DNA of 34,245 nucleotides from a virus, in IMG/VR virus record IMGVR_UViG_3300047557_001081, positions 1 to 34,245 of that record; one strand, 5' to 3'. A program made the translations under genes and the position numbers. Below, one piece after another: positions 5,015 through 32,438 of this stretch. Positions within the stretch are counted from its first letter, which is position 1. Every line of letters begins with the position of its first letter. Below the pieces are notes generated by a model, which worked only from the letters and a program-made list of their open reading frames with translations, did no database searches and was not told the DNA's origin.

Positions 5015-5015
5015 G

Positions 5016-5789: not shown

Positions 5790-5798
5790 GATTTATCC

Positions 5799-16903: not shown

Positions 16904-19732
16904 CTATGATGTAATAGCCATGAGCTCTTGATTAGAAAGTCTGCGAGGATAATATGCTATTTGACGGATGTGTCCGTTTAATATTCCGCCTGAAGTCAAG
17001 CCTTGTCCGACCTGCATAGTATTTACTCCTGAAGGCAGATTAACACTTGTGGCTGGTGTTATTGCAGAACCATTCGTTGAAATAGCAACATAATTGCTAG
17101 CGTAAGTAAACGCTGAACGATACAGCCCACTTGGAATCGCAGATATAGATGTAATGTTTGCTTGGCTTACATTGCCAGTAATTACTTGGATTCTGCGGGG
17201 GTCAAATCGCATCATCTCGCTACTTGTCGTATTGTTTAATGATGTCACCCCAGAAGCATTGCCTGTACTATCACCTTGGTTGAACGCAAGAGAACTAGCA
17301 TACAAACTACCCTCATTAGGGTTATACCAACTACTAAAGTTACTACCTTGAACGACTGCAATATCACGACTTCTAGTGACCTGTGCAGATGTCGTAGGGA
17401 TATAGCTAGTAGCAAATGCACCAGCCTCTAGTTGAGCACCCCAGATGTAAACTGATTCTGTACCAACTGGATTCCATGTTTCTGCTCTAGTGGCAGTAGC
17501 AGACGGAGACAACATAAAGAATGGTCTACGGTCTGTTCCACCAGCGGTGTAGACAAACTGCAAGCGATACCATCCATTACCTACTAGAGTGATTGTTGCA
17601 GTTGATGAGCCATTTGCAGAAGCTGTTCCGTTACCAGTTAATGTAAAGTTAGCCCATTCAGCAGCTTGATTGTTCAAGTAAATCTGAACAAACGAATGGG
17701 TATTTCTTTTAGCGTATATCGTTGCTGTATACACCGTAGACAAAACTGTTGCTGTTGAGATTTGTCCTACTCTTGGTATCGTTCCTGTTCCAGCATCTGC
17801 TGTAATAGTATCGGCATCTTGAGTCCCATCAGGACTTACAACCGAGTTAGCAGCAATAGTGGCTGCGTTTTTAGTCCACGCTGCATTGTCGAATTGCTCA
17901 GAGAATGTCAGCAGATTAGTCCTCTGCTCCTCAATCAGTAAACCTCTTGGCTGAAGTGTTACTGGGTCATAATCAAATCTAGGAGCATAGTAAGCTGTAG
18001 AGCTTGGTGCAGCTACTGGGTTGTTTACATAAGGGTCTAGTGATGCAGAGTCAGAAAGCTGTGCTCCCCAAATGTAGATACCGCTAGTTCCATCGCCTGT
18101 GTAAATATCAGAGTTGTCTGTAAGTGAAGTTGTAATTCTAGCCAACACACCAGTTGCGGTTGTTGCAGCGACCACAGCTACACGATACCACCCGTTACCA
18201 ATTGCTGTGATTGAACCAGTACCAGCAGTTGTTGCAGACACAGTTCCATTCAATAGGTTGAAAGTTACATTGGCATTGTTTGTAAAGGGAGATGTTGATT
18301 GAGCCAACAACATATTGACTCGGCTACGCTCACCAGCTTTTACATAAGCACTAAAGGTATAAGTAGTTCCTGTAACAACAGTAACACCAGCTTGAACATA
18401 GTGCTGGTTGTTAGCAGTATTCTCCACCAACTTATCCGCAGTCATCGTTCCGTTAGGAGCTTGGTACATCACAGGCAAAGCAGATGATGTAGTCTGCTGA
18501 TAATCACCAGCAACAGAGCCTTGGACTAATTGAGCACCCCAAATAGCAACATCGCCTGTGTAAACATTTCCACGAATCGCTTGTACTGATGTCACAGAAG
18601 TCGCGGCAGTCACAGTAAATGTCTGTCTAGTCCACTCTGTTGTTGGAGTAAATGTAACTGCTTGTGTTGCACCATCAACAACAAGTAAAATTCGTAGTGA
18701 GCCAGCTACTGTGAATGATAAAGACCTAACCCATATACTAAATGTATATGTCCCAGCACCTAAAGAAACAGTTTGGGCAATGTTAGACAAGTTAGTTGAA
18801 ATACTGAGTGTGTCAGCAGTTGTAGTTCCATTAGGGGCTACTGTTGTATTTGCTGTGACAGTTGCAGTAGCTTTATTCCAAGCTGCGTTATCAAACTGTT
18901 CGCTAAAAGTAAGCAAGTTAGTCTGAATAAATGAGTTACTCTTTGTCCACGCAGCGTTAGCAAAATCCTCTGAGAACCCTAGTAAGTTCTTGACAGTTGT
19001 AGGGTTATATGTGGTTGCAGTAGAGCCTACTTCGAGTTGAGCACCCCAAATGAAAGTACCGCTTGTTCCGTTTCCAGAGAATGAATAACCTACTGGGGTT
19101 CCTGATGTATAGCTATTGTCAATAGAGAATAACTGAACTGGGTATGATGCTGTACCAGCGTAGGACATTGAGCATCTAAACCATCCATTACCGACTGGTG
19201 TTATTGTTGCTGTTGTAGACGCAGAAGTTCCTACGACTACACCTGTGCTTAAATTAAAAGTAGCCCAAAGCCCTGAGCCACCTTCTCTAAAACCGCAGAA
19301 GTTATACCCGCTTGCTCTGAAGTAAGCAGATAAAGTATGTGTAGCTACTGCTAAAGTTGCAGACTGGAATACATTATGAAACCCACTTGTAGCTGTTGGT
19401 ATAACTAAATCAGCAGTAGTAGTCCCATCAGGAGCAACAGTATTATTTGCTGTTACAGTTGCATTAGTCTTTGTCCAAGCAGCATTATCAAACTGCTCAG
19501 AGAATGTCAGTAGGTTCATCGGGGCGAATTGAATTAGCCCACTAGAATTGGTCAGTGTGGCATTAGACGCGCGAGAAAAAGTTATCCGTGGATCAAGCGT
19601 ATTAGTGCCATCAGTAAAATTCTCATAAAAAGTCGCGCCGTACCCATTACGAAGGCCTTTATTGCCAGACATCGAGGGGATTGACTGAATGGCTACTGAT
19701 ATGCCTGTCTGCGTTGCTACGCCATAACCCAT
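16904..19732 (-). CDS. Phage head-spike/tail fibre with repeated carbohydrate-binding-like domains (942 aa)
   Basis: The N-terminus (residues 45-70, DPRITFSRASNATLTNSSGL) is the common lead-in of this family. A repeated module opens with NLLTFSEQFDNAAWTK and closes with an IWGAQL strand. Copies: A about 73-245, B about 272-415, C about 418-572 (no opening) and D about 605-786. A stub, NLLGFSEDFANAAWTKSNSF, lies at 249-268 between A and B. Each copy looks like a beta-sandwich carbohydrate-binding module. Residues 787-942 resemble a LamG/concanavalin-like lectin ending GHIRQIAYYPRRLSNQELMA. It is therefore probably a host-surface adhesin, possibly on the head or neck. It lies between small basic genes and the portal cluster, with 2 nt to the 55-aa gene upstream. 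No hydrolase motif seen. Confidence 0.75.
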   Translation of the reverse strand: MGYGVATQTGISVAIQSIPSMSGNKGLRNGYGATFYENFTDGTNTLDPRITFSRASNATLTNSSGLIQFAPMNLLTFSEQFDNAAWTKTNATVTANNTVAPDGTTTADLVIPTATSGFHNVFQSATLAVATHTLSAYFRASGYNFCGFREGGSGLWATFNLSTGVVVGTSASTTATITPVGNGWFRCSMSYAGTASYPVQLFSIDNSYTSGTPVGYSFSGNGTSGTFIWGAQLEVGSTATTYNPTTVKNLLGFSEDFANAAWTKSNSFIQTNLLTFSEQFDNAAWNKATATVTANTTVAPNGTTTADTLSISTNLSNIAQTVSLGAGTYTFSIWVRSLSFTVAGSLRILLVVDGATQAVTFTPTTEWTRQTFTVTAATSVTSVQAIRGNVYTGDVAIWGAQLVQGSVAGDYQQTTSSALPVMYQAPNGTMTADKLVENTANNQHYVQAGVTVVTGTTYTFSAYVKAGERSRVNMLLAQSTSPFTNNANVTFNLLNGTVSATTAGTGSITAIGNGWYRVAVVAATTATGVLARITTSLTDNSDIYTGDGTSGIYIWGAQLSDSASLDPYVNNPVAAPSSTAYYAPRFDYDPVTLQPRGLLIEEQRTNLLTFSEQFDNAAWTKNAATIAANSVVSPDGTQDADTITADAGTGTIPRVGQISTATVLSTVYTATIYAKRNTHSFVQIYLNNQAAEWANFTLTGNGTASANGSSTATITLVGNGWYRLQFVYTAGGTDRRPFFMLSPSATATRAETWNPVGTESVYIWGAQLEAGAFATSYIPTTSAQVTRSRDIAVVQGSNFSSWYNPNEGSLYASSLAFNQGDSTGNASGVTSLNNTTSSEMMRFDPRRIQVITGNVSQANITSISAIPSGLYRSAFTYASNYVAISTNGSAITPATSVNLPSGVNTMQVGQGLTSGGILNGHIRQIAYYPRRLSNQELMAITS

Positions 19733-21731: not shown

Positions 21732-22181
21732 TTACGCCGCTTTCTGTTTATGTTCCACGTGAAGCGTATTGCTCGCTTCTTGTGGCACTTCGGTGATAAG
21801 ACCTTCAATGACGCGACTTTTAGCTTGTTCCAATGCGTCAGTGATGGAAATGCGCTGTTCCACTTCGATGTTGACTTGCTGTTTAGCCACCCAACCATGT
21901 TGATGCTTCAAGATTTCTAACGCTGCCTTAGCGTCGCCATTGCGTGCAGCTTCATGCAAGTACGCTGACATCTCACGCTCACCATCAGCGCGGCCCTTTA
22001 ATTCAGCCATTTCAGCCAATGGGTCAAATTCACACAAGCGACGAAACTCTACAGGCAACATCCCCGCAGCAAGTGCCAACGAATCACCCTTCAACCCTAG
22101 CTTGGCCGCTTCATAGATAGCTTCGAGCCGTGCTTCAGTTGCTTGGATCTTTCGCGGTTCGTATGGTAGCGATTTGAACAT
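21732..22181 (-). CDS. terS: Terminase small subunit
   Basis: 149 aa. Residues 10-60 form a helical DNA-binding-like part (EARLEAIYEAAKLGLKGDSL, then ALAAGMLPVEFRRLCEFDPL) consistent with a helix-turn-helix. Residues 85-120 (ARNGDAKAALEILKHQHGWV) followed by NIEVEQRISITDALEQAK are typical of TerS oligomerisation segments. TerS recognises the packaging start site and regulates TerL. It is the first gene of the leftward late block and lies beside the 809-bp repeat-rich region, so the packaging site may be in or near these genes. No clear Shine-Dalgarno precedes the ATG, so the start or translation mode is uncertain. Confidence 0.8.
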   Translation of the reverse strand: MFKSLPYEPRKIQATEARLEAIYEAAKLGLKGDSLALAAGMLPVEFRRLCEFDPLAEMAELKGRADGEREMSAYLHEAARNGDAKAALEILKHQHGWVAKQQVNIEVEQRISITDALEQAKSRVIEGLITEVPQEASNTLHVEHKQKAA

Positions 22182-22316
22182 GGGCTGATGATATCAAGGG
22201 TGGGAAAATTTTGCAAAAAATAAAAAAGTTTTTGTAAACCCTCCTGACCAAAACTCCCATTCCCGTTTGGCCCTACCCCCCCCCATGCTTTTTGAAAACT
22301 GCTTTTTGGTTAGCGG

Positions 22317-22391
22317 GCTGGGCGCCCTTATGTTATAAGGCTTTGCGGGTTATGAAAGCTGGGCGCCCTTATGTTATAAGGCTTTGCGGGT
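22317..22391. repeat. Direct repeat, 34 bp identical, 41-bp period
   Basis: Two identical 34-bp units at 22317-22350 and 22358-22391, 41 bp apart, each beginning GCTGGGCGCCCTTATGTTAT. Inside each is CCTTAT-GTT-ATAAGG, a perfect 6-bp inverted repeat, plus the palindrome GGGCGCCC. Possible protein-binding or origin elements. Confidence 0.75.
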
Positions 22392-22442
22392 CACATAGTT
22401 TTTATGTTAGTCATGTTAGTCATGTAGTCATGCAACCGAAAG

Positions 22443-22524
22443 CCGGGCGCCAAAATGTTAAAAGCTAGCGGGCGCCCGGTTAAATGTTAGTCATGTCAGT
22501 CATTAGTTTTTAAATGACTAACAT
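22443..22524. repeat. Two inverted repeats with equal 19-nt spacers
   Basis: CCGGGCGCC at 22443-22451 pairs with GGCGCCCGG at 22471-22479. ATGTTAGTCAT at 22484-22494 pairs with ATGACTAACAT at 22514-22524. Both have a 19-nt spacer. They may be cruciforms in DNA, RNA hairpins, or paired operator sites. Confidence 0.65.
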
Positions 22525-22622
22525 GACCTACAAAGTGAGGGAGATTTTTCCACGGGCCGGAAAGCGGGCGGGAAAATGTTAGTCATGTCGGTCATGTTAG
22601 TCATACCTTTTTAATCGCTGCC

Positions 22623-22650
22623 TTGTAACATTGCGCTGTCGTTATATAGT
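22623..22650 (+). promoter_or_regulatory. Candidate promoter 1 (rightward)
   Basis: TTGTAA at 22623-22628, 16-bp spacer, TATAGT at 22645-22650. The -10 differs from TATAAT by one base. It is upstream of several reverse iterons, which would lie in its transcript or act as operators. Confidence 0.4.
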
Positions 22651-22904
22651 ATTTTAGGAGTTTCTAGAATAAGTCTTAAAAAATGACTACATGACTAACA
22701 TAAAGGCAAAAAGATAGGTTTTATAAGGCCCCCGCGTTAGTCATTTCCCCGCTTTTTATGACTTACAAATTGACTACAAAATGACTACATGACTAACATT
22801 TTCCGGCCGCCAATTTTTGCCCCTGAATTTTCCCCTTGTTTTGTAGTCAATCTCAAAAAAGCCCGTTTTTCTCACAATGTGCAATAAAATATCATACAAA
22901 GCTC

Positions 22905-22932
22905 TTGTAAATGTAAAACAATGTATTACAAT
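22905..22932 (+). promoter_or_regulatory. Candidate promoter 2 for the ten-gene rightward operon
   Basis: TTGTAA at 22905-22910, 16-bp spacer, TACAAT at 22927-22932 (one mismatch to TATAAT). The -35 and spacing equal those of candidate promoter 1. The predicted start falls next to the hairpin at 22938-22962, about 50 nt before the first gene. Confidence 0.5.
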
Positions 22933-22937
22933 GTTAC

Positions 22938-22962
22938 TAACGGCGCGACAAAAAGGCCGTTA
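22938..22962 (+). promoter_or_regulatory. Hairpin at the predicted 5' end of the operon mRNA
   Basis: TAACGGC at 22938-22944 and GCCGTTA at 22956-22962 form a 7-bp stem with an 11-nt loop. It would sit at the very 5' end of the transcript from promoter 2, where it could stabilise mRNA, or be an operator in DNA. Confidence 0.5.
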
Positions 22963-22990
22963 TCAATAAACTAAAGTAAAGGGTAAAAAA

Positions 22991-23098
22991 ATGACTAAAT
23001 TAGAAGATTTTATACAAATTGGTATTTGTGCTGCTTTGGCGGCTTTAATGTTATATCCCGTTCTAGGTGTCACTTATCTATTGATCAAGGCGGCCTAA
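22991..23098 (+). CDS. Single-pass membrane microprotein (35 aa)
   Basis: ATG at 22991, TAA at 23096-23098; AAAGGGTAAAAAA upstream gives a ribosome site. The product starts MTKLEDFIQIGICAALAALM and continues with a hydrophobic stretch (LYPVLGVTYLLIKAA). About 24 of 35 residues are hydrophobic, so a membrane helix is likely, with the short acidic N-terminus probably outside the bilayer. It is the first gene of the operon, followed after 2 nt by another membrane peptide. No family recognised. Confidence 0.6.
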   Translation: MTKLEDFIQIGICAALAALMLYPVLGVTYLLIKAA

Positions 23099-23100
23099 TC

Positions 23101-23217
23101 ATGACTAAACAAGAGCAAAAAACCCGCAATATTGACGTAATTTTGAGCGCCCTTTTGGGCGCATTTATCGGCGCGATCTTGGCGCTTACTTACATCGTAC
23201 GTACTGGAGGCTTTTAA
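23101..23217 (+). CDS. Single-pass membrane microprotein (38 aa)
   Basis: ATG at 23101 opens MTKQEQKTRNIDVILSALLG; the rest (AFIGAILALTYIVRTGGF) is hydrophobic with a small-residue GxxxG-like face (LGAFIGA). Charged N-terminus and one helix suggest a small inner-membrane peptide. The reading frame also extends upstream to a TTG at 23026, but that would overlap the previous gene by most of its length and lacks a ribosome site, so the ATG is preferred. It lies 2 nt after gene 1 and 1 nt before gene 3. Function unknown; such peptides are often inhibitors or superinfection-exclusion factors (inferred). Confidence 0.6.
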   Translation: MTKQEQKTRNIDVILSALLGAFIGAILALTYIVRTGGF

Positions 23218-23218
23218 A

Positions 23219-23497
23219 ATGACTAAATCTTTAACCTTAAATTTCTATCAAGATCCAGGCCATGCCTGGGCCAAGATTGCTATTAAAAAGCTGCACGATT
23301 TGGGCATTGCCGGCCAGATTTCGCGATATTCCTATATGCGCGGCCAATACGCCTATTTAGAAGAAGATTGCGATCTGGGCCTATTGTTTAAAACGTGCGA
23401 CGCGGCCGGTATCACTTTAAAGCTTAAATCTTTTGTATGCCGTGAGCGCCAAAGTAAGATCCGCTCTTATCTTAACTACTCATTGGAGGCTATCTAA
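23219..23497 (+). CDS. Conserved phage protein, unknown function (92 aa)
   Basis: Starts MTKSLTLNFYQDPGHAWAKI; contains YSYMRGQYAYLEEDCDLGLL and ends in a basic/hydrophobic segment. The pattern 'FYqDPGHaWakv...LGIadqIS-x-YSYxRG-x-yaYLEEDCD' is known from small proteins of phages and plasmids, all of unknown role. Predicted mixed alpha/beta, soluble, with three cysteines (in EEDCDLG, KTCDA and FVCRE). GGAGG lies 8 nt before the ATG. It sits third in the operon, with 1-2 nt gaps on both sides. Confidence 0.65.
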   Translation: MTKSLTLNFYQDPGHAWAKIAIKKLHDLGIAGQISRYSYMRGQYAYLEEDCDLGLLFKTCDAAGITLKLKSFVCRERQSKIRSYLNYSLEAI

Positions 23498-23499
23498 TC

Positions 23500-24000
23500 A
23501 TGGCATATATGAACCAGGAAAAAAAGGCCATTATTAAGGCGGCATTGGATAAGGTATTAAAGCCGGCCGGGTTTAAGTACTCATTGGCCGTTAAAAATCA
23601 TATGTCGATAAGCTGCACGATATTGGCCGGCCCGCTGGATTTTATCGGTAATTTTAGCGCCGTGACTGGGGATAAATTTACTAGTATTCCTGGCCGCGAT
23701 ATAACTAATCTTCAGGTTAATATGTACTGGATTAATGATCATTTTTCCGGGATTTATGCCGACATTTTGACGCAATGCGCCGACGCGCTAAAGGCCGCGG
23801 ATTATTATGATCGATCCGACGCAATGACCGATTATTTCGACACGGCCTATTATATGGATCTAAATATTGGCCGCTGGGATAAGCCGTACAAATTGACGGG
23901 CGCGCCGTACCAAAAGCCGGCCACTAGTGGATCATTAATTGACTATATGCGCGACGCTGGCCGCCTTGAATTTATCCATATTGGAGGCGCGGAAAAATGA
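23500..24000 (+). CDS. Conserved phage protein, unknown function (166 aa)
   Basis: Starts MAYMNQEKKAIIKAALDKVL with KPAGFKYSLAVKNHMSISCT following. Conserved-looking elements are NMYWINDHFSGIYADILTQC, DRSDAMTDYFDTAYYMDLNI and GRWDKPYKL. I associate the order 'MaYMsQEkKa...KYSLAVrNHs...DyFDv-x-Y-x-dINiGrWdKPY' with a widespread phage/plasmid family of unknown function. No transmembrane segment. A GGAGG lies 10 nt before the ATG and the last codon overlaps the next ATG (ATGA). It is probably cytosolic. The motif resembles nothing catalytic that I know. Confidence 0.65.
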   Translation: MAYMNQEKKAIIKAALDKVLKPAGFKYSLAVKNHMSISCTILAGPLDFIGNFSAVTGDKFTSIPGRDITNLQVNMYWINDHFSGIYADILTQCADALKAADYYDRSDAMTDYFDTAYYMDLNIGRWDKPYKLTGAPYQKPATSGSLIDYMRDAGRLEFIHIGGAEK

Positions 24001-24203
24001 TCACAATCAATCGATTAAATAGAGGGAGCGGCGGCATATATGTATTGCGCGCTAGTGAGGCGGCCGATTTTGAGGCGCTGGATCTTGAGATTAAGCGGGT
24101 TTATGACTCAATCGATCCCTGGGCCTCCCCTAGTATTTCCCGCGCAATCGATCCAGTCACGGGCGGCGCTATTGTGAAAATTAAATATTATGGATTAGAT
24201 TAA
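23997..24203 (+). CDS. Unknown small protein (68 aa)
   Basis: Overlaps the previous gene's stop (ATGA) and follows a GGAGG site. Sequence MITINRLNRGSGGIYVLRAS then EAADFEALDLEIKRVYDSID has an alternating beta-alpha-beta feel and ends VKIKYYGLD. No motif or membrane segment recognised. It is translated in the same chain as the two conserved proteins flanking it. It is most likely a genuine gene because of the tight packing and strong ribosome site. Confidence 0.5.
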   Translation: MITINRLNRGSGGIYVLRASEAADFEALDLEIKRVYDSIDPWASPSISRAIDPVTGGAIVKIKYYGLD

Positions 24204-24204
24204 T

Positions 24205-24894
24205 ATGCTAAACGTACATTTAACCCCAAAATCGGCCAATGTTAAAACTGGCCCTATCCCCGTAAGTACCACAAGCGCGGCCACTTGCCCGCCAGATTGC
24301 CCTTTTAATAATAAAAATGGATGTTATGCCAGCAGCGGGCCATTGGCCTTACATTGGGCGGCCGTGACTAGCGGCGCCCGCGGTACAAGCTGGGATCAAT
24401 TTTGCGACGATATCGCGGCATTACCTGAGGGCCAATTGTGGCGCCACAATCAAGCCGGGGATTTACCAGGCAATGGCCTAGAGATTGACGGCGCGGCACT
24501 GGGCAATCTAGTAAAGGCCAATAAGGGCCGCCGCGGCTTTACTTATACTCATTACAATCCGGCCAATAGTAAAAATGCCGCCTATATCAAGGGCGCCAAT
24601 GACTGGGGCCTGACAGTCAACCTAAGCGCCAATACGCCGGCCCATGCCGACGATCTAGCGGCCCTAGGTATTGCGCCCGTGGTTACAGTATTGCCAATTG
24701 ATCAAAAAGAAAATAGCTATACCCCAGGCGGGCGCAAAATTGTAGTATGCCCGGCCACGATCCGCGACGGTATATCGTGCGCCACGTGCAAATTGTGCGC
24801 CGTCCGTGATCGATCCGTGATTATCGGCTTTCCGGCGCATGGTACCAGCGCCAAAAAGGCCGCCCGTGTTTTTACTATCCAGGAGATTAAATAA
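24205..24894 (+). CDS. Cys-rich phage protein, Gp88/DUF7227-like (229 aa)
   Basis: N-terminal MLNVHLTPKSANVKTGPIPV then TSAATCPPDCPFNNKNGCYA: cysteines 28, 32 and 40. A central WRHNQAGDLPGNG (residues 79-91) matches the 'W/V-R-x-H-x-s/a-GD' of the mycobacteriophage Gp88-type family. C-terminal C182 (VVCPATIRDG) and C192-x2-C195-x2-C198. Eight cysteines in total, suitable for a metal site or Fe-S cluster. The fold in this family is thought to be TIM-barrel-like, distantly like radical-SAM enzymes, but I cannot show that here. It is the largest gene of the cassette. The phage role is unknown. TAATG connects it to the next gene. Confidence 0.65.
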   Translation: MLNVHLTPKSANVKTGPIPVSTTSAATCPPDCPFNNKNGCYASSGPLALHWAAVTSGARGTSWDQFCDDIAALPEGQLWRHNQAGDLPGNGLEIDGAALGNLVKANKGRRGFTYTHYNPANSKNAAYIKGANDWGLTVNLSANTPAHADDLAALGIAPVVTVLPIDQKENSYTPGGRKIVVCPATIRDGISCATCKLCAVRDRSVIIGFPAHGTSAKKAARVFTIQEIK

Positions 24895-25178
24895 TGAATA
24901 TTTGGAGCAGCAGCAGCGGCCGTATTGAATTAAACCTAAACCAGGAGGCCGCGGGCCGTGGTTATCATCCTGGGCCATGCGATGATGATATAGCGGCATT
25001 AATGCATGATCCGGCCATTGCTAACCAATTGGCCGCCCTTGATCCGGCCATTGTAGCCAGTGAATTAAAAGAATTTGGCGCCTGGGACGCCATGGAATTA
25101 TCTAATCATGCCGATAATTTAATGCGCCTTTTGTGGATTGCTTGCGCGGATCTAGTGGAGGCGGCCCAGGATGACTAA
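24894..25178 (+). CDS. Unknown acidic helical protein (94 aa)
   Basis: Starts MNIWSSSSGRIELNLNQEAA, then acidic/Ala-rich helices (CDDDIAALMHDPAIANQLAA, LDPAIVASELKEFGAWDAME). No metal or enzyme motif seen. AGGAG lies 8 nt before the ATG, which overlaps the previous TAA; the stop overlaps the next ATG region by 8 bp. High acidity suggests a DNA-mimic or protein-binding inhibitor, but this is only a guess. Confidence 0.55.
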   Translation: MNIWSSSSGRIELNLNQEAAGRGYHPGPCDDDIAALMHDPAIANQLAALDPAIVASELKEFGAWDAMELSNHADNLMRLLWIACADLVEAAQDD

Positions 25179-25281
25179 ATATAAGATAACCCCTAAGCGC
25201 GGCGCGCCCTATTTTATCTGGGCGGCCAATTATTACCAAGCGGCCAAGCTGGCCGGTAAATCTAAACTAGAGGAGGTTTAA
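25171..25281 (+). CDS. Small basic protein (36 aa)
   Basis: ATG at 25171 with GGAGG before it (GTGGAGGCGGCCCAGG). Sequence MTKYKITPKRGAPYFIWAAN then YYQAAKLAGKSKLEEV. Aromatic and basic with one amphipathic helix. It overlaps the 94-aa gene by 8 bp and precedes the next gene by 2 nt. Function is unknown. The start ATGACTAAA matches three other starts in this operon. Confidence 0.5.
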   Translation: MTKYKITPKRGAPYFIWAANYYQAAKLAGKSKLEEV

Positions 25282-25283
25282 TA

Positions 25284-25421
25284 ATGAAATATAACGTATA
25301 CGCGCCAGATAATGCGCTTTTGGGATCTTATGATTGCGCTAGCGCGGCCATTGCGGCCGCGATAACGTATCAGACAATGACGGGCCAAGCGGCCCACGTG
25401 ATCCAAGAGGCGCCATTATGA
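25284..25421 (+). CDS. Small protein (45 aa)
   Basis: MKYNVYAPDNALLGSYDCAS, then AAIAAAITYQTMTGQAAHVI and QEAPL. GAGGAGG lies before the ATG. The Ala-rich middle could be a short amphipathic helix, and the 'Y-x-V-x-A-x-D' start resembles small beta-alpha proteins in phages. The stop overlaps the ATG of the last gene (ATGA). No function is recognised. Confidence 0.5.
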   Translation: MKYNVYAPDNALLGSYDCASAAIAAAITYQTMTGQAAHVIQEAPL

Positions 25422-25480
25422 TTGCTTTGGCCATTGCTTTATTTTTAGCCTGGATTGCAGTTATTATTTTTGATCTTTAA
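25418..25480 (+). CDS. 20-aa hydrophobic membrane peptide
   Basis: MIALAIALFLAWIAVIIFDL, almost wholly hydrophobic with one Asp near the end; one membrane helix. Start overlaps the previous stop (ATGA). It is the last gene, 28 nt before the operon's terminator. Such tiny peptides are real in some phages (holin-like or host-protein inhibitors), yet at 20 aa chance occurrence is possible. Confidence 0.4.
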   Translation: MIALAIALFLAWIAVIIFDL

Positions 25481-25508
25481 CTTTTAACTTTTAACTTATA
25501 CCCTTTTT

Positions 25509-25533
25509 GGCCCGCTTATCGCGGGCCTTTTTT
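25509..25533 (+). terminator. Intrinsic terminator of the rightward operon
   Basis: GGCCCGC-TTATC-GCGGGCC, a perfect 7-bp GC-rich stem with a 5-nt loop, followed by TTTTTTATTTT. It ends the plus-strand operon and sits at the junction with the convergent primase gene, whose TAA is at 25532-25534. The minus strand has no T-run after the stem, so it mainly stops rightward transcription. Confidence 0.85.
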
Positions 25534-27847
25534 ATTTTACGCGTACAAGGCCAGGCGCTGGCGCTTCTTCGACGGCGCGCCTCAATTCCGATTTACTAAG
25601 TATCGGCGCTAAATCAGGGGCACAAAATATATGCTTTTTGCCCGGATAATCGCGCGACATAAGGCGCCCGCAATCAATCCAACCCGCTTCCTTTAATGCA
25701 TGGAGGAGGGCCGCTTGGGGTATTTTGACGCCACTAGGCGCGGATCCGGCTAGACGATCGCATAGGCTATGAAATGGAGATCCAATAACCCCACGTGAAA
25801 ATTCCCCCGTGCGATTACGCATCATTTCCACTAGGTAACTTTCCGCCATGCTCATACCGTGCTCTACTAAATTCATTTTGAATTCAGTCATCGGCGGCGC
25901 GGCGGCAGGGTTAAACTGCGACACGTCGCGGGCGTATAGCCAGCGCGCGATTGATGCAAACCCGCCGGCCTTATACCAAGCCCATAAACGCTGGGCGACA
26001 GAGGCATCGATTCGGGGCGCACTCGACCAAATGCAAAACCAGCGACGGTCTTGTGAGGCCAATGAAATAGGCACGGGGTCGTTACTAAAGGCCAGCACAA
26101 AAAGGCGATTGGCCATCATGTAGGGGTGCAAGCCCTTACGATTGATAGGCAACATCTCAGGCGGCGCGGCTATGATTGGTTTCAGTTGGTTAGCTAATTG
26201 ACGGCGCGCAGCGGCATCGGGTTCCTTTAATTCGTTGATAAGCAGGATCTCCGACTCGAGTTGATAGCCCCATTGGGAATTGATTGAGTTATTATCCATA
26301 ATGCCACGGTTTTTCAAGTGATCACCGCAGACAGCCCAAATAAACGGCGCCCAAAACGTATCTTTACCACAGCCCTCATCACCCGCGTGCAGGACAGCAT
26401 GATTGATTTTGATTTCAGGGTGTTGAACTTTAAAAGCCATGATGTTGAACAGGTGCTCCAACTCGGTTTCTTCTGGAACTAACGTTTTGCAGTGATCAAG
26501 CCACATGGATATATCGCCGACAGGCGCATCTGCTACGTCTGGGCGCGCATCGCGCCAACGGTTGCCATATACGTCGCCATCACGCGACACCAACACCGAC
26601 TCACCTGCGGCGTAAGTGATACCGACAAGAGCTTTAGCGCCGTTAGCTTGGCGGTTCTCGTCAAAGCAGACAGAGGCCTCGACTCGACGGCCAGTGTGGA
26701 TAGATTTACAAGCGATATGCCTAAATAGAGCATTGAATGTAGAACGGCTAATCTCACGACGGTCTACAAGGTCAAAATAGGCTTCATCGTCTTGGATATA
26801 GGCGAAGCGCTCATACCATTGAGCTTTTTCGATACGACCCAACTCCTTACGCTCGACCTCAGCGATAATTTTAGCTGCATCATCAGTGAACATATCAGAG
26901 GGTTGCAGCTTGGATAGCGCCACGTCCATCGTGGCCGCGAGCAACTCATCACGCAGGCCATGATCTACTTCGGGGCCACCGTTATCAGCTACCCAATCTA
27001 AGAACGCCTGAGAGGACAGCCCTTGGCAGTGGGCGTGATAGCAACAAAACGAACGGTCTAGGGGCTTGTAACGCGCTTCAGGGTTGCCGTCGCTGTGCTG
27101 ATCCTTATTAGGGCAGATGATAGACAGCCAGCCCTCATGGTTAGCGTTGGATAACACTAAGCCTTGCTCGTTAAGCCATGTAAGGACTTTATCCTTACCG
27201 GTGTCTTTGAGGCGGATAGCGCCCACAGACGTGGTGTCGGCAGGCTCAGGAGATACGTTTAGGGCGGTGCAGATTTGGCCTAGCGTGTATTCACGCTCAG
27301 GGTGGAACTCGACGAGCTTGGCAGCGAAATTGCCCTTGCCAGGCTTGAGATTGATTGAGCCAGGCAGGCGGAAGTTACGCACGGCATTAGTTGCACCAGG
27401 GTCGCTATAGCCCGCAGCGGCGATTGCCTTGATAGCTGCGGTGTACTCGCCCTTGCTCGGTTGCTCGCTGAATGCGTAACCCCACTGGAACGAGCCTTCG
27501 GACGTTTCCATAATCCACGTCGGGGGTAGCTCAGGCGTCTTGGTCGTCTTGGCAGGGTCGCCCACGTCATCAAGCATCATTACAAGCACGTACTCGCAGT
27601 TGGCGGCAGAGGCACTAGGCTTGCCATCAGTAAAGCGGTCAACGATGAAGCTGCCCGTGTTGCCGTACCATGACTCGGTGTCCTTCATGCGAGCCGTTGG
27701 CAGGTATGCAGGCCATGTGCATTTGATAGCACCATCAGCATGGAACTGCAACTCACCGTCTTTAAGCTGTGGTTTTTGCTTGACAAACAGGGCGGTTTCA
27801 CCCTCAGGGGCTAATTTTGTTATGTAATCGATAAAGTCTTGCATCAT
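25532..27847 (-). CDS. Primase-helicase, D5-like SF3 helicase with primase N-terminus (771 aa)
   Basis: Residues 85-175 contain VLVMMLDDVGDPAK and the NFRLPGSINLKPGKG stretch, like an archaeo-eukaryotic primase fold (hDhD and RLPG-N-K motifs; inferred). A Zn-ribbon-like site follows: Cys245, His251, Cys268/269, His271/273, Cys274. Helicase: Walker A AGDEGCGKDTF (488-498), Walker B EILLINEL (533-540), FVLAFSND (583-590) and DRRW (600-603), as in SF3/D5 enzymes (DUF5906-like). It lies at the downstream end of the replication block. The last 150 residues are coded in GGCGC/GGCC-rich DNA like the neighbouring cassette, while the rest is not, hinting at a mosaic join near 26.0 kb. Confidence 0.85.
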   Translation of the reverse strand: MMQDFIDYITKLAPEGETALFVKQKPQLKDGELQFHADGAIKCTWPAYLPTARMKDTESWYGNTGSFIVDRFTDGKPSASAANCEYVLVMMLDDVGDPAKTTKTPELPPTWIMETSEGSFQWGYAFSEQPSKGEYTAAIKAIAAAGYSDPGATNAVRNFRLPGSINLKPGKGNFAAKLVEFHPEREYTLGQICTALNVSPEPADTTSVGAIRLKDTGKDKVLTWLNEQGLVLSNANHEGWLSIICPNKDQHSDGNPEARYKPLDRSFCCYHAHCQGLSSQAFLDWVADNGGPEVDHGLRDELLAATMDVALSKLQPSDMFTDDAAKIIAEVERKELGRIEKAQWYERFAYIQDDEAYFDLVDRREISRSTFNALFRHIACKSIHTGRRVEASVCFDENRQANGAKALVGITYAAGESVLVSRDGDVYGNRWRDARPDVADAPVGDISMWLDHCKTLVPEETELEHLFNIMAFKVQHPEIKINHAVLHAGDEGCGKDTFWAPFIWAVCGDHLKNRGIMDNNSINSQWGYQLESEILLINELKEPDAAARRQLANQLKPIIAAPPEMLPINRKGLHPYMMANRLFVLAFSNDPVPISLASQDRRWFCIWSSAPRIDASVAQRLWAWYKAGGFASIARWLYARDVSQFNPAAAPPMTEFKMNLVEHGMSMAESYLVEMMRNRTGEFSRGVIGSPFHSLCDRLAGSAPSGVKIPQAALLHALKEAGWIDCGRLMSRDYPGKKHIFCAPDLAPILSKSELRRAVEEAPAPGLVRVK

Positions 27848-28338
27848 TTAACTTCCTTAAACGGGTGATACTGTTGTTCTGCTTTTTTACGTGCCGCGAT
27901 AGCGTCGCTGAGGTTTTTAAAACGACCTACACGTATTACTTTGTAATTTAATCGTAGACGTACTATCCATTTTTGATCTCTGGCATACCATGTAACCCCA
28001 CGGCAGCCACTGCGTGTACTTGCGTCGGCCACGTTTTGCATATTCTCGCTTTGGTTACATTCACGTAGATTAGCTATGCGATTATCCGCTTTGTCGCGGT
28101 TGATGTGGTCAATATTTAATGTTGGCATGACGCCATGTACATAGAGCCAAGCTAAACGATGCGCTTTGTACATACGAGTATCAACGCGGATGACTTTGTA
28201 GCCATCAGCATCAAAGCAACCAGCAGGTGCGCCCGCGCTTTTATTACCGCGTTTAACTAGCCATGTAAATTTACCCGTATCGGGCTGATAATCAAGCAAC
28301 TCTTGAAGTCGCTTTTGCGTTAGAATGCCGCAAGCCAT
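27844..28338 (-). CDS. HNH homing endonuclease with AP2-like C-terminus (164 aa)
   Basis: Starts MACGILTQKRLQELLDYQPD; the ATG has AGGAG 8 nt before it, preferred over an upstream in-frame ATG at 28377 that lacks one. The HNH core is AHRLAWLYVHGVMPTLNIDH then INRDKADNRIANLRECNQSE. The C-terminal part GCRGVTWYARDQKWIVRLRL then VGRFKNLSDAIAARKKAEQQ is an AP2/ERF-like DNA-binding region. This pair is typical of phage free-standing homing endonucleases. It sits between the DNA polymerase and primase genes and its stop overlaps the primase ATG (TGATG). Likely an insertion without function for the phage (inferred). Confidence 0.85.
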   Translation of the reverse strand: MACGILTQKRLQELLDYQPDTGKFTWLVKRGNKSAGAPAGCFDADGYKVIRVDTRMYKAHRLAWLYVHGVMPTLNIDHINRDKADNRIANLRECNQSENMQNVADASTRSGCRGVTWYARDQKWIVRLRLNYKVIRVGRFKNLSDAIAARKKAEQQYHPFKEVK

Positions 28339-28366
28339 TTTAATTCTCCTGTAATTAAGGTGGTCA

Positions 28367-28400
28367 GAAACGCTCAATATTTGTCGGTATTGGGCGTTTC
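28367..28400. repeat. Long inverted repeat between DNA polymerase and HNH gene
   Basis: GAAACGCTCAATA at 28367-28379 and TATTGGGCGTTTC at 28388-28400 pair over 13 bp with one mismatch and an 8-nt loop. A plus-strand GTTTT follows. It could be a transcript-processing or termination element, or a footprint of the homing gene insertion. Confidence 0.65.
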
Positions 28401-28421
28401 GTTTTATAGACGATTAGTATA

Positions 28422-30410
28422 CTACTTACCATACCTTGTCATCACTTTTATTTCTACATCTAAGGGTAAACCTGACGCCCAAGCAGGTGGTTCGCACATA
28501 ATCTCAATCATACGTTGCTTAACTTCATCAGCCTGATCTGCAGGGCATTCCACCACTACTTCATCATGCACGTGCGCCACAGCCGTATAACCTTCTTGAT
28601 CTAAACGACGCAACGCATAGCGAAGCACATCATTTGCAACTGCTTGAGTTACGTTTTCACACGCTAACCCACGCCATAAGCGACCTTTAGGCCATTCTTT
28701 TGCGTCCGCCGCAGGCTTCCAAGACGCTTTTGCGTACGCTACGCCATCTTCATCTAGCACTGCAAACGGATAGCAAAGGATACGCCCGCTAGGTAGTACA
28801 TACCAAAGGTGTTGGCCATCAAACAGATAAGTTACTCGCCCGGCGCTAAATTCATGGCCTTTATTGCGCATCGCTCTAGTATATGCAGACTCTAAATCTT
28901 GACCATGCTTCATGGCCCACATATTTGCACGGCGCCAAGTCTTAATAGCTTTTTGAATCTCAGATTCAGATAGCCGCACACCATAAACGCGGCCAAAAGT
29001 TTCAAAAGAACCTGCTCCACCTAAAAACCCTAGCGCCAATTCTTGAACTTTGCCTACCTGTCTTTCGTCAGACTTGCCTGCGTTTTCATACTCATCTGCA
29101 ATCACGGCGTAGGGTTTATTGAATGTAGCAGCAGCGTTGACGATATATGGATCAAGACCTTTTCTAAACGCGTCTAGCTTATCTTCACCTGACGGGCAAT
29201 TAGATAGCCAAGGGTGTACTCGGCCTTCAATCGCTGACCAATCGGCGACAACTAAAACATTTCCTTCGGCTGGGATAATAGCGGGGCGTAGCATTCCTTT
29301 AAGCACATCTGTAACGCGCTTTCCGTAGGCCGGAACGATTTGGTGTCCTCGCACCATGGCGTGTCGTACAGCGTCGGGATCTTTTGCGCATCGACGTGCA
29401 AAATTGTGAAGCTGAGCCCCGTACGATGAAGCACGTCCAGTGGCACTACCGCCAGCAAAGACAAAAGCTCCTCTAACCCTTGAATCTTCTTCATCTGATA
29501 ACTCCGCTAATCTCTTGAATTTTGCAACACTAGACGCCCATAGGTCGTCCGCACATTGGATAACATCTGCAACTTCCGCTGGTATTTCATCGGGGTTTTC
29601 ATCAGCAAGAATAAGTAGGTTAGCTCGAACTGTTTTGTCGATTGAATATTTCTTCTCGCCATCTTTGTAATTCTCCATGAGTTTCTTGGCTTGGTCGCCA
29701 ACGCGAGCAAGCACCCATTCTCTCATGCGTGGGCTACGAACTGAAGTAATCTCGCCTTGCGTGATGTCCGCTACCAACGATTGAATCTCCTCAAGCTCGT
29801 CACTAGCGTACTTGACGGCCGACAACGCTAAGGCTTTGTCCAACAGCACACCCTTGTCATTGATGCGCTCGTTGACGTGGTAGTCAAGCAACTCCTCGTT
29901 AGACAGCTCACGCATGGCCTGACTGACTGCTCGCATGGTACGGACATCCTGTTCGCAGTATTGGATCATCTCTTGCATGAGCGCAGGGTCGTCGTTAAAT
30001 GTACCATCCGCCCGTGGGATAGACAGCAAACGAATAAGTTGCGAACCGCGGTGGTCTTTACGCATATTGACTGAGGCAAACCGCCCCACATCCTCAAGCG
30101 AACCAGGCGCGCAGTTGGCACGGGCTTGAGCAGCTGTACAGTAGAACTGCTCAAGGTTAAAGTTAATCTGTAAAACATACCAGAAAGTCAAACGCTCGAA
30201 CGCTGCGTTATGCGCTCGGATTTGACCGGTATGGTTGCGTACTCGCTCAGGAAACGGTTGATCTGGCGTCCATGTCACCACGTCCTCGTCATCGAAGGCG
30301 TAGCTCATGCAGAGCACCTCGGTACTGCCGTCTTGAGCGTAGTTGTAGACGCCACGACTAGGTAAGTCGCAACGGCTACGGGTTTCAAAATCAATCCAAA
30401 GTATATTCAT
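28422..30410 (-). CDS. DNA polymerase, family A with 3'-5' exonuclease
   Basis: 662 aa. Exo I WIDFETRS (Asp7, Glu9), Exo II AHNAAFE (66-72), Exo III YCEQD (Asp155). Polymerase motif A VVADWSAIEGRV (Asp390), O-helix R450-x3-K454-x3-L458-x3-F462 and motif C HVHDEVVVE (Asp616, Glu617). The order is that of replicative family A enzymes. The O-helix has Leu458 where E. coli Pol I has Phe762, and Phe462 for Tyr766. No 5'-3' exonuclease domain. It replicates phage DNA together with the SSB-like protein, primase-helicase and nucleases around it. Stop at 28422 is followed by a long inverted repeat. Confidence 0.92.
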   Translation of the reverse strand: MNILWIDFETRSRCDLPSRGVYNYAQDGSTEVLCMSYAFDDEDVVTWTPDQPFPERVRNHTGQIRAHNAAFERLTFWYVLQINFNLEQFYCTAAQARANCAPGSLEDVGRFASVNMRKDHRGSQLIRLLSIPRADGTFNDDPALMQEMIQYCEQDVRTMRAVSQAMRELSNEELLDYHVNERINDKGVLLDKALALSAVKYASDELEEIQSLVADITQGEITSVRSPRMREWVLARVGDQAKKLMENYKDGEKKYSIDKTVRANLLILADENPDEIPAEVADVIQCADDLWASSVAKFKRLAELSDEEDSRVRGAFVFAGGSATGRASSYGAQLHNFARRCAKDPDAVRHAMVRGHQIVPAYGKRVTDVLKGMLRPAIIPAEGNVLVVADWSAIEGRVHPWLSNCPSGEDKLDAFRKGLDPYIVNAAATFNKPYAVIADEYENAGKSDERQVGKVQELALGFLGGAGSFETFGRVYGVRLSESEIQKAIKTWRRANMWAMKHGQDLESAYTRAMRNKGHEFSAGRVTYLFDGQHLWYVLPSGRILCYPFAVLDEDGVAYAKASWKPAADAKEWPKGRLWRGLACENVTQAVANDVLRYALRRLDQEGYTAVAHVHDEVVVECPADQADEVKQRMIEIMCEPPAWASGLPLDVEIKVMTRYGK

Positions 30411-30497
30411 AGTGTTAGGTGGGGCTACTCGCTACGTCTGTCGCTAAGTGTCGGTAGCCACGTTTGCAAGACAGCATCCGCTTTTGCCCCGTAAACC

Positions 30498-30626
30498 TTA
30501 TCTACAAATAGTTACCCATTGGCAACCGCCACCACCGCAAACATACTGTTGCCAACAGTTTGCTTGTTGTGCTACGGCAAAACCAACTACAAAAAAGGCT
30601 GCAAAGGCTAAAAGTGCTTTTTTCAT
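30498..30626 (-). CDS. Secreted Cys-rich micropeptide (42 aa)
   Basis: MKKALLAFAAFFVVGFAVAQ then QANCWQQYVCGGGGCQWVTI and CR. Residues 1-19 are a classic Sec signal (MKK, hydrophobic core, AVA cleavage site), leaving a 23-aa mature peptide with four cysteines (C24, C30, C35, C41), likely two disulfides, two Trp and a GGGG turn. AAGGAG lies 8 nt before ATG. It is in the replication block between the SSB-like gene and the polymerase. It is predicted periplasmic or extracellular. Alternatives: a lipoprotein is excluded as no Cys follows the cleavage site. Too short for any standard gene list. Confidence 0.65.
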   Translation of the reverse strand: MKKALLAFAAFFVVGFAVAQQANCWQQYVCGGGGCQWVTICR

Positions 30627-30640
30627 GGTAATACTCCTTA

Positions 30641-31291
30641 TTAAACGCTACGGCGACGGCGAGCTGGCGCGGCTTCTACAGCAGGTGCGGAGGCTTCTTC
30701 AGCAGGTTCGTCATTAGTTTCACCTTCCATGTTCACCCATTCTTGAATGTCAAACACAGGCGTGTAGATGCGGCCGTATGACTTGTGCTGGTAGTGCTCC
30801 TTTTTGAGCAACACGACTGGCACAGGTTTGCTTTGGTCTTTTTCTACTTGTGTAGCAATCGCTACTGCCAAGGCTTGTACTGCGCGCTTACCGCCAACAG
30901 ACGTGGTGGTGTAGCGCACTTCAAGGCCCTTGTCAGAACCAGAGATACACTTCATAGACATACCAACTTGCGTTTCCCAACCCTTTTTAGCGTTAGGTGG
31001 GGCAGCATCTAGCTCAGGCAATGGCTGTGATACAGATACCATCTTTTCACCCAATACCTCACCATCACCCCAAGCAATAAAGCCGTGAACGAAGGAGAAA
31101 GGATTGACGGCCCACAACGCGTCATCTTCGGCTTCAGTTTGGTCTGCACCAAACACCCAATGACCTGTTTTGTCCATCTTGATGATTGCTGTACCTGCCT
31201 CACCCACGTCGGTTTCCAACGTACGCAAGGCTGTAGACAATGATTGAACTGAAGGTAGGTTTGCTGAACTGAACTTTACTAGATTAGACAT
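30641..31291 (-). CDS. Putative SSB-like replication accessory protein (216 aa)
   Basis: N-terminus MSNLVKFSSANLPSVQSLST. The middle contains GTAIIKMDKTGHWVFGADQT, NPFSFVHGFIAWGDGEVLGE and KSYGRIYTPVFDIQEWV; the end is an acidic-then-basic Ala-rich tail (EEASAPAVEAAPARRRRSV). This order is common in phage proteins beside DUF2800 nuclease and Pol A genes, whose role is probably ssDNA binding, though activity is not demonstrated here. The aromatic/basic mid-region and flexible tail suit an OB-type SSB. It begins 10 nt after the nuclease stop and has a GGAAAATCGT site before ATG. Confidence 0.6.
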   Translation of the reverse strand: MSNLVKFSSANLPSVQSLSTALRTLETDVGEAGTAIIKMDKTGHWVFGADQTEAEDDALWAVNPFSFVHGFIAWGDGEVLGEKMVSVSQPLPELDAAPPNAKKGWETQVGMSMKCISGSDKGLEVRYTTTSVGGKRAVQALAVAIATQVEKDQSKPVPVVLLKKEHYQHKSYGRIYTPVFDIQEWVNMEGETNDEPAEEASAPAVEAAPARRRRSV

Positions 31292-31301
31292 ACGATTTTC
31301 C

Positions 31302-32438
31302 TTATTGAAGTTTAGAAAGAGCCGCAGTTAACTGCTGCCCGATTTGCAACACCGCTGGGCGTGGATCATCCACGGGTGCCAACGTACTACCAGAGGACAC
31401 GGCAACAACCAAGTCCTTCGGGAGTTCTTTTTTAGCCTTCTTCAAGACCTTTTCGGCTTGAGCTGGCGAAATAAGCTTTTTAGTATACAGCTCGTCCTGG
31501 CTCATATCCTGAGCTAGTGACTTAGCCGCTTCATCTTCATCGATCCACTGACGTGTAGCCCGTTTAGCGACAAGCTTCCAGCCGGGCACTTCTTTGCCAG
31601 ACTCTAAGACTTGATGCGCTAACCCACGTAAGTCAGTAATCCACTGCTCTAACAGCTCGGCGTTCTTGAGGTAGCCACCGATGTGTACCACATCTAGCTC
31701 GTCAATCTTAGCCTTCAAGGCACGGTCAACAGCGCCTGTCATCTTAGGACAGACAGGCTTGGCGGCACACCAACGGCAATGGTCGCCATGTTGTAGCGGT
31801 GCATTAGGTTGCTGGGCTAACTTGACGGCTGTTTTGAGTTCGTTCTCAAAGGCCATGATGCGGTCTTTGGTCGTCACCCAACGTTTAATAGAGGGCGGCT
31901 GCACGATGATGCACTCGATTTCGGTTGCACCATCAAATACCCACTTCACGGCGTCGGTACGCATCGCAGCCGCCGCATAGAACATTAACTGAGCATTTTC
32001 CTCAGCTTCAACGGCAACGCCATCACCAAACTTCCAGTCCAATACAATAGCGCGAGTACCAATACGCCCAAGTAGGTCAGTGGAACCAAAAACATCAGGC
32101 AAAAAATCCCCAAAACCGACACGCGTTTCAACTGCATATTCCATTTCCCTATTCGGATCAACCTCATCGAGCAAGTCTAACGCAGGGAACAGCTTGTCCT
32201 CAAGCAACTCTTTCGTGAATGTGATGTCGTTGTATTTAGTACCAAGGAAATCTACAGGCGCTTTATTGCCTTCAAGAACCTCGGAGATAATATTGTGCAA
32301 GAGCGTACCCTCATCGGCGTACTTGCTACTTGGCTTTTCTGGCATGGTAGCGCATAAGGCTACTGAACCAGGGCAGTTGATGACTCGTTTAGCGGTAGAG
32401 CCACCGACCACTCGACTGTGGGCTGTTACGACTGTCAT
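31302..32438 (-). CDS. DUF2800 Cas4/RecB-like exonuclease (378 aa)
   Basis: PD-(D/E)XK nuclease features: Glu43 and His48 in ADEGTLLH, Asp121 in VFGSTDLLG, Asp134-x-Lys136 in IVLDWKFGDG and QLMFYA near 150. Iron-sulphur cysteines: C22 (NCPGS), C221-x2-C224-x5-C230 (DHCRWCAAKPVC), as in Cas4/AddB. This is the DUF2800 family; it processes DNA ends or recombination intermediates, probably during replication. The gene is first in the leftward replication block, just downstream of the divergent promoter at 32.47 kb. Ribosome site AAAGGAAATTAC precedes the ATG. Confidence 0.85.
   Translation of the reverse strand: MTVVTAHSRVVGGSTAKRVINCPGSVALCATMPEKPSSKYADEGTLLHNIISEVLEGNKAPVDFLGTKYNDITFTKELLEDKLFPALDLLDEVDPNREMEYAVETRVGFGDFLPDVFGSTDLLGRIGTRAIVLDWKFGDGVAVEAEENAQLMFYAAAAMRTDAVKWVFDGATEIECIIVQPPSIKRWVTTKDRIMAFENELKTAVKLAQQPNAPLQHGDHCRWCAAKPVCPKMTGAVDRALKAKIDELDVVHIGGYLKNAELLEQWITDLRGLAHQVLESGKEVPGWKLVAKRATRQWIDEDEAAKSLAQDMSQDELYTKKLISPAQAEKVLKKAKKELPKDLVVAVSSGSTLAPVDDPRPAVLQIGQQLTAALSKLQ

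Follow-up and report, generated by a model that had tools for sequence, protein, structure and literature searches.

In the early accessory regions of T7-like phages, such as the left end of Burkholderia phage Paku, small unnamed genes occur in runs, and in Paku a homologue of one gene of the locus described here (g7) lies 5' of the primase. Anti-defence clusters of phages and plasmids are also alike in that small, swappable genes are gathered in one locus. Holins and lysis peptides resemble the last product of the locus as small hydrophobic phage proteins. Among takeover proteins, micropeptides that are encoded by early genes and act from the membrane are an established type, and Gp11 of phage phiNM1 is a small membrane protein that blocks host functions (PMC11237401). 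Gp11 is comparable to the last product in kind; it has 53 residues and two predicted helices, and the peptide described below has 20 residues and one.

The window analysed is the whole 34,245-nucleotide stretch of the viral record IMGVR_UViG_3300047557_001081 (positions 1–34,245), and the cassette occupies 22991–25480 on the + strand. In contrast to T7-like early regions, the cassette has its small genes in the primase–terminase interval, oriented against both neighbours and closed by a constant membrane peptide of 17–20 aa. Unlike anti-defence clusters, the window copy has no recognised anti-defence gene, though an ArdC protein and a DNA methyltransferase are carried as cargo in relatives. 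We consider it somewhat probable (roughly 60%) that the cassette is the window copy of a hypervariable accessory slot, presumably expressed early and with a putative role in takeover or counter-defence, arranged around a constant micropeptide predicted to insert in the membrane. The lineage consists of podovirus-like phages from fresh water; their structural genes are P22-type, and their hosts are probably betaproteobacterial.

Layout of the cassette and its borders

An earlier note on this DNA, made from the sequence alone, had described ten tightly spaced genes running in a single direction. Their number, sizes and spacing (Table 1) were borne out by the coordinates, by the successive junctions from g1 to g10 (+2, +1, +2, −4, +1, −1, −8, +2 and −4 nt), and by a codon-usage chain model that returned precisely g1–g10 and nothing extra. 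The three membrane micropeptides it had counted correspond to g1, g2 and g10, and hydropathy agrees. The strong ribosome sites were found 5' of g3, g4, g5, g7, g8, g9 and g10 (Shine-Dalgarno sequences with at least 4 matching bases), but those of g1, g2 and g6 are weak. The cassette is compact, encodes mostly unnamed proteins and runs against the replication and late genes, as the note had held, which fits an accessory early region.

Table 1. Features of the cassette and its flanks in the window
Feature	Coordinates	Strand	Description
Terminase small subunit (slot border)	21732..22181	-	Adjoins terminase large subunit
Leader, ca. 0.8 kb	22182..22990	.	Non-coding, between terminase small-subunit start and g1
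g1	22991..23098	+	35 aa membrane micropeptide (hydropathy)
g2	23101..23217	+	38 aa membrane micropeptide, LGAxxxGAxLGA...GGF kind (persistent upstream peptide)
g3	23219..23497	+	92 aa
g4	23500..24000	+	166 aa, phrog_10415 (function unannotated), widespread phage family
g5	23997..24203	+	68 aa
g6	24205..24894	+	229 aa, DUF7227 (PF23872)
g7	24894..25178	+	94 aa, phrog_14450 (function unannotated)
g8	25171..25281	+	36 aa
g9	25284..25421	+	45 aa
g10	25418..25480	+	20 aa single-helix membrane micropeptide MIALAIALFLAWIAVIIFDL, last gene of slot
Intrinsic terminator of cassette	25509..25533	+	7-bp GC stem and T tail
Primase/helicase-like replication protein (slot border)	25532..27847	-	Counterpart in MW202483 annotated virulence associated protein E

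The leader contains eight copies, on both strands, of ATGTTAGTCAT/ATGACTAACAT, where shuffled sequences give at most two. Leaders of ca. 650–900 bp are found in many relatives, each with its own repeated 11-mers, and the repeats mark a candidate regulator-binding or origin region. The promoter reported in front of the cassette was not upheld – there were 13 consensus matches, no excess over shuffles (10.2 ± 3.5), and the candidate at 22905–22932 is missing from the sister contig (L086), in which only ca. 38 nt 5' of g1 are conserved. The perfect terminator reported behind the cassette was borne out, with a perfectly paired 7-bp GC stem and a T tail (−16 kcal/mol, z −3.4).

The sister contig is the closest comparison, with nine of the ten ORFs comparable. 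Purifying selection was apparent across g1, g2 and g4–g9, with dN/dS of 0.03–0.37 (0.09 for g1, 0.03 for g2, 0.37 for g5, 0.06 for g8 and 0.12 for g9). The g3 position is a clean swap, occupied in the sister contig by an unrelated gene of 101 aa. The two g10 genes are diverged alleles with a dN/dS of 0.77, so the coding status of g10 rests on the wider family described below.

Some of the genes have a narrow distribution, g1 and g5 occurring only in the window and the sister contig and g9 in a loose BLAST cluster in 13 loci. The homologous cluster of g2 is found in 28 loci, or 48 once analogous families are added; a generic scan for an upstream micropeptide (70 of 76 slots) was not above its antisense control (55 of 76), so this peptide is claimed by homology only. 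Homologues of g3 are found in Limnohabitans phage DC31 and MW202701. The g4 product matches phrog_10415 (E 2.7e-32, PHROGs), and its family extends to 191 IMG/VR loci and 60 phage records. Its structure model (pLDDT 80.7) gave only middling fold matches (best Z 5.4), and a search of solved structures by sequence gave only weak ones (best E 0.0064). An assignment of g4 to the LPD29-type polyvalent-protein domains found no Pfam support in 50 members, and a plasmid origin of g3 and g4 was discounted, with just two plasmid records apiece. The g7 product matches phrog_14450 (E 6.1e-19, PHROGs), with homologues in Limnohabitans phage DC33 and MW202722 in addition to Paku.

The largest product, g6, had been called Gp88/DUF7227-like, and only the second half of that name stands. 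It is a full-length DUF7227 protein (E 1.7e-94, 316 bits against a Pfam gathering cut-off of 27), with residues 3–223 of 229 aligned to positions 2–221 of 223 in the profile. GP88 (PF17338) is a different Pfam family with no match to g6 at E ≤ 1, and a relation between the two families was not supported by hhalign with a GP88 member from the slots (probability 0.3%). The g6 model (pLDDT 94.5) is TIM-barrel-like. Seven cysteines are invariant in the alignment (C28-x3-C32-x7-C40, C182, C192, C195 and C198); the canonical radical SAM motif CX3CX2C is absent from them. Non-canonical cluster loops exist among radical SAM enzymes, as in QueE. Fold comparison of the model (VIA) gave QueE at Z 6.0 (rmsd 6.2, 158 aligned), OxsB at 5.5 and SkfB at 5.1, with which ordinary TIM barrels tie; the best Foldseek match had an E of 5e-3, and a search of solved structures by sequence found none. 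Other DUF7227 proteins are also encoded among small genes – gene 105 of Pseudomonas phage PAK_P1, inside a small-gene block, and gp04 of Roseobacter phage CRP-345, near the left end – but their neighbours are different unnamed small genes. Homologues of single window genes are found in unrelated phages, in regions of small genes or at the left end.

A DNA-level search of 50,697 phage records gave zero matches. No anti-defence protein was recognised among the window genes with Pfam, PHROGs, NCBIfam or PADLOC, the last of which covers defence, not anti-defence, families. For a prophage in bacterial genomes the sole match was one short betaproteobacterial MAG contig, and this reading was set aside. 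The literature searched had nothing pertinent on DUF7227, GP88 or a cassette of this type.

An exchangeable slot with a constant last gene

In the 80 related, primase-anchored IMG/VR loci compared, the slot is bounded by the 3' end of the primase and by the terminase genes; 76 slots, and 28 more distant ones, were scanned for the last peptide. In the relatives, too, the terminase small subunit is beside the large subunit, both on the primase strand. Of 74 testable slots, 72 have a better gene chain on the strand opposite to these genes than on theirs. Slots are 1.6–4.1 kb long (median 3.0 kb), and turnover within them is high – the 522 proteins predicted form 201 clusters, of which 110 are singletons. 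Among the cargo of the relatives are GP88, an ArdC antirestriction protein (L219), an amidoligase-like/GATase pair and a beta-clamp-like protein; MW202483 has a cytosine DNA methyltransferase in its slot. The counter-restriction genes (ArdC and methyltransferase) are found only in the slots of relatives, none in the window copy. The earlier note had held that its cassette idea would fail if the genes were scattered among relatives with known, unrelated functions; they are scattered singly, yet their functions are not known ones.

The exception to this turnover is the last gene, and g10 has the features of its family: a helix of 17–20 aa with a hydrophobic C-terminal residue, last before the terminator and convergent with the primase. 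In a relaxed scan a terminal micropeptide was found in 100 of 104 slots (74 of 76 in the primase-anchored set and 26 of 28 in the more distant set), counts that are not independent because the loci share kinship. The controls gave 5 of 520 in shuffles (ca. 1%) and, on the antisense strand, 7 of 76 and 0 of 28. A strict scan found the peptide in 56 of 76 slots, with none on the antisense strand and 1 of 1520 in shuffles. L232, L233, L016, L017 and MW202483 are without it. Other phage DNA, 2.16 Mb in all, gave seven micropeptide matches, none followed by a terminator, compared to 66 of 73 in the slots.

The family is under selection at the protein level, with a pN/pS of 0.20 in frame and 1.03 and 3.35 in the shifted frames. 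There are 52 distinct peptides, with a core that excludes Asp, Lys, Arg and His and a C-terminus that is mostly Asp-Leu/Ile; the length is 17–20 aa overall and 19–20 aa in the primase set. No family library searched gave the peptide a name. PHROG matches of the micropeptides were weak (best E 0.02 for the last gene and 0.0023 for the upstream one) and fell in families unrelated to one another; they were left aside. The 20-aa last gene had been overlooked as a conserved element in the first reading of this DNA.

Possible roles of the slot and its last peptide

With 100 of 104 slots retaining it, the last peptide probably meets a need of the phage within the host membrane. The odds are about even that it is both the near-invariable gene of a freely exchanged cassette in this freshwater lineage and a dedicated membrane effector of infection, acting in takeover, exclusion or defence blocking. 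The slot is fixed between primase and terminase and runs against the late and replication genes, and its cargo genes are gained, lost and swapped singly. The last gene is the constant part, a 17–20 aa hydrophobic helix, usually with the Asp-Leu/Ile end, normally with a membrane micropeptide of 28–45 aa further upstream. In the mechanism proposed, the polycistron may be transcribed early from the repeat-bearing leader, and the last peptide would often be translationally coupled to the preceding gene through a 4-nt ATGA overlap. It is predicted to insert in the inner membrane as a single helix and could act on a host membrane protein through contacts between helices, or could act in oligomeric form. 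Soluble cargo products would act on targets in the host or its defences, with specificity for the strain.

Superinfection exclusion is a possible but doubtful role. Here the peptide would block DNA entry of related phages at the inner membrane, and the variable cargo would be unrelated to it. Small membrane proteins give superinfection exclusion in other phages, and constant presence with a lineage-specific sequence amid swapped cargo fits a function in self versus others; however, the exclusion proteins known to us are all longer than 19–20 aa.

A lysis element is improbable. Holins are small membrane proteins, and the membrane peptides adjoin the terminator, as could be expected if the last peptide, with its upstream partner, were a minimal holin/antiholin and the cassette late. 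However, the slot peptide is in the wrong operon and on the wrong strand for a holin, and it has 17–20 aa, one helix and no charged loop. In three relatives the late operon, which lies on the opposite strand, has an endolysin preceded by several membrane proteins, with candidate holins beside the endolysin. With lysis genes elsewhere in the relatives, the last peptide is unlikely to be a holin; in the contig of the window itself, an endolysin was not recognised.

The earlier note had treated the ten genes as a unit, in effect a fixed system for takeover or counter-defence whose parts had evolved together. In its favour, the genes are contiguous, partly overlapping and under purifying selection, and nine of ten positions are kept in the sister contig. 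However, that contig is the only other one with most of the set, the other close relatives compared share 0–3 families, and g3 and the g10 allele have already been exchanged between the two closest contigs. Such a system is therefore very unlikely, being largely refuted by the neighbourhood comparison. Of the takeover or counter-defence operon that the note had proposed, the accessory layout and the ArdC and methyltransferase cargo of relatives still speak in favour, and the single ten-gene unit is lost.

That the last ORF is a by-product of T-rich terminator sequence and no gene can be all but dismissed, despite its very short length and the weak Shine-Dalgarno sequence in many relatives, on the frame-specific pN/pS, the near absence from shuffles, and the fixed length in the primase set and fixed Asp-Leu/Ile end.

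The preferred reading remains an accessory slot around a constant membrane micropeptide. Accessory early regions of phages are already known and are usually variable throughout; here a peptide of 20 residues, shorter than common gene callers accept, stays constant. The slot also serves as a marker, as the primase–terminase interval in this lineage yields hundreds of small unnamed proteins. Counter-restriction genes are included among them, and candidates for anti-defence genes can thus readily be drawn from the slot.

The ten-gene cassette and its surroundings

An earlier note had described ten small genes, some of them overlapping, running in one direction at 22991–25480, and all ten ORFs (g1–g10) are present, with g2 starting at 23101. 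A chain model whose training relied chiefly on codon usage in the large phage genes recovered exactly these ten, and none besides, in 22401–25531. The terminator proposed behind the cassette was borne out (7 GC pairs, -16 kcal/mol, z -3.4). The promoter proposed in front was not: sigma-70-like matches were no commoner than in shuffled sequence, and conservation 5' of g1 in the sister contig L086 is limited to about 38 nt. The repeats of the leader resemble ATGACTAAA, found at the starts of g1, g2, g3 and g8. The leaders of many relatives are similar in length and have repeated 11-mers of their own: GTCATGTAGTC, GTCAAATTGTC, TGTGGACAATG and TGGCAATATTG.

Features of the window outside the ten genes
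Feature	Positions	Strand	Basis or description
Late genes (P22-like coat, portal, tail) and terminase	1643–22181	-	translations read; annotation of MW202483
Three adjacent proteins	4430–6413	-	common motif VASTSGTSIDFTxIPSWxKxITV, end like RITTxNGTDTFDAG; tandem paralogues with a probable tail or fibre role
942-aa protein	16904–19732	-	repeated NLLTFSEQFDNAAWTK segments, internal duplication
Leader repeats	22401–22808		ATGTTAGTCAT/ATGACTAACAT, eight copies, both orientations
Replication genes (primase/helicase, HNH, DNA polymerase A, DUF2815-like, DUF2800-like)	25532–32438	-	translations read; annotation of MW202483

No integrase was recognised in the large-ORF translations of the window, an IMG/VR virus record of 34,245 bases. 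In a collection of bacterial genomes, the primase has just one close match, a short contig from a betaproteobacterial MAG. Three relatives (L254, L255, L256) have a second opposite-strand module encoding a SNF2-like helicase and a VRR-NUC-like nuclease, with a cytosine DNA methyltransferase as well in L255 (named by eye).

In L086 (IMGVR_UViG_3300020043_000497), whose primase is 85% identical to that of the window, g1, g2 and g4–g10 are kept in unchanged order, and the gap between g2 and g4 is filled not by g3 (92 aa) but by an unrelated gene of 101 aa. Between the two contigs, dN/dS is 0.09 for g1, 0.03 for g2, 0.07 for g4, 0.37 for g5, 0.12 for g6, 0.27 for g7, 0.06 for g8 and 0.12 for g9. 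It is 0.77 for g10, the 20-aa last gene, whose alleles look exchanged. 8 of the 10 window families are common to L086, and the next relatives share 0–3. The set of genes, which the earlier note suggested might be an undescribed takeover or counter-defence operon, is real, but it is not one fixed ten-gene system.

The protein encoded by g6 belongs to DUF7227 (E 1.7e-94), with homologues in 184 phage records, mostly of Pseudomonas; in PAK_P1 the homologue is surrounded by small unknown genes, and in CRP-345 it is close to the left end. g4 is phrog_10415 (191 IMG/VR loci, 60 phage records). g7 is phrog_14450, with relatives in the left-end region of the T7-like Burkholderia phage Paku, ahead of the primase; in MW202722, where exonuclease and RecT genes lie downstream of it; and in Limnohabitans phage DC33. 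Relatives of g3 occur in Limnohabitans phage DC31 and MW202701. Homologues of these four genes are placed singly in other phages, so the cassette genes turn up one by one in accessory regions, as though drawn from a common pool. The DC33 record (PQ492659.1) is filed under Inoviridae, yet its 39-kb genome contains one very large gene as well as an endolysin, which looks like a taxonomy error.

The predicted structure of g6 (pLDDT 94.5) has a TIM-barrel-like arrangement, and its best matches include radical-SAM enzymes (QueE, Z 6.0), tied with ordinary barrels; a radical-SAM-like protein is a lead from this model rather than an assignment. Seven cysteines are invariant in the family, and suggest that g6 may bind a metal or Fe-S cluster.

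Turnover of genes in the slot

80 IMG/VR loci were surveyed with the primase as anchor for the slot, the opposite-strand region of small genes between the primase 3' end and the terminase genes. Wherever both borders are present (55 slots, window included), the terminase genes are on the primase strand, and slot length is 1.6–4.1 kb (median 3.0 kb). In 72 of the 74 slots that could be tested, the opposite-strand gene chain scores above the other strand. The predicted content, 522 proteins, falls into 201 BLAST clusters, 110 of them singletons; single gene calls can be wrong because the gene-calling model is simple.

Two kinds of recognisable cargo are common in the slots of relatives: DUF7227 in 15 loci and a DNA polymerase III beta-like protein in 19 (Pfam E 3e-9). 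Relatives also carry GP88 (E 1e-36), a metallophosphoesterase (E 5.5e-6) and an ArdC antirestriction protein (E 5e-11). A cytosine DNA methyltransferase occupies the slot of MW202483, a complete metagenome-derived genome. An amidoligase-like and class II glutamine-amidotransferase-like pair occurs in 7 loci, with E values (0.006 and 0.004) that both fall short of the Pfam cut-off. In these (L186, L188, L190, L193, L195, L200, L201) the pair, of 440–472 and 326–345 aa respectively, takes up most of the slot, and a micropeptide is still found at its end. The GP88 (PF17338) proteins of L243 and L248 have a cysteine-rich N-terminal pattern in common with DUF7227; homology between the two families was not detected despite this.

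The micropeptide at the slot end

A strict scan of the last 300 nt of each slot (ATG start, 17–22 aa, hydrophobic, ending in Asp, Glu or Asn plus a hydrophobic residue) found counterparts of g10 in 56 of 76 slots, with none antisense and 1 in 1520 dinucleotide shuffles. A relaxed rule (17–20 aa, hydrophobic C-terminal residue, within 650 nt) gave 74 of 76 (antisense 7, shuffles 5 of 380). Searching through DUF7227 or g4, not the primase, added a second set: 28 slots that are more distant (primase identity 48–69%). The relaxed rule, which took in 17-aa peptides and every hydrophobic last residue only once part of this set had been inspected, found the peptide in 26 (antisense 0, shuffles 0 of 140); 14 qualify under the first rule. 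A terminator follows 66 of 73 slot peptides, and none of the 7 such ORFs in 2.16 Mb of other phage DNA.

The 74 first-set peptides are 19 or 20 aa long, with 52 distinct sequences. Position -2 is Asp in 76–85%, and the last residue is mostly Leu or Ile. Asp, Lys, Arg and His are absent from the core, where Glu makes up 10 of 859 residues. pN/pS is 0.20 in frame vs 1.03 and 3.35 in shifted frames (87 pairs, at least 70% DNA identity). The start overlaps the preceding stop by 4 nt in 28 of the 60 cases having an upstream ORF. The peptide had no name in any family library searched. A second membrane micropeptide (28–45 aa, g2-like) is usual by homology (48 loci); a generic scan for it was not separable from chance.

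A slot fixed in position and strand thus turns over its genes and ends in a micropeptide under protein-level selection and a terminator. The micropeptide is unlikely to be a holin because the lysis cassette is located elsewhere in relatives: the endolysin is in the late operon, with membrane proteins ahead of it. The cassette may be transcribed early, its last peptide inserting into the membrane, with a possible role in takeover, exclusion or counter-defence. Early-made phage membrane micropeptides can block host functions, as with the 53-aa Gp11 of phiNM1 (PMC11237401). As an accessory gene region, the cassette is itself a known kind of thing; new here is a swappable cassette built round a constant membrane peptide of 17–20 aa.
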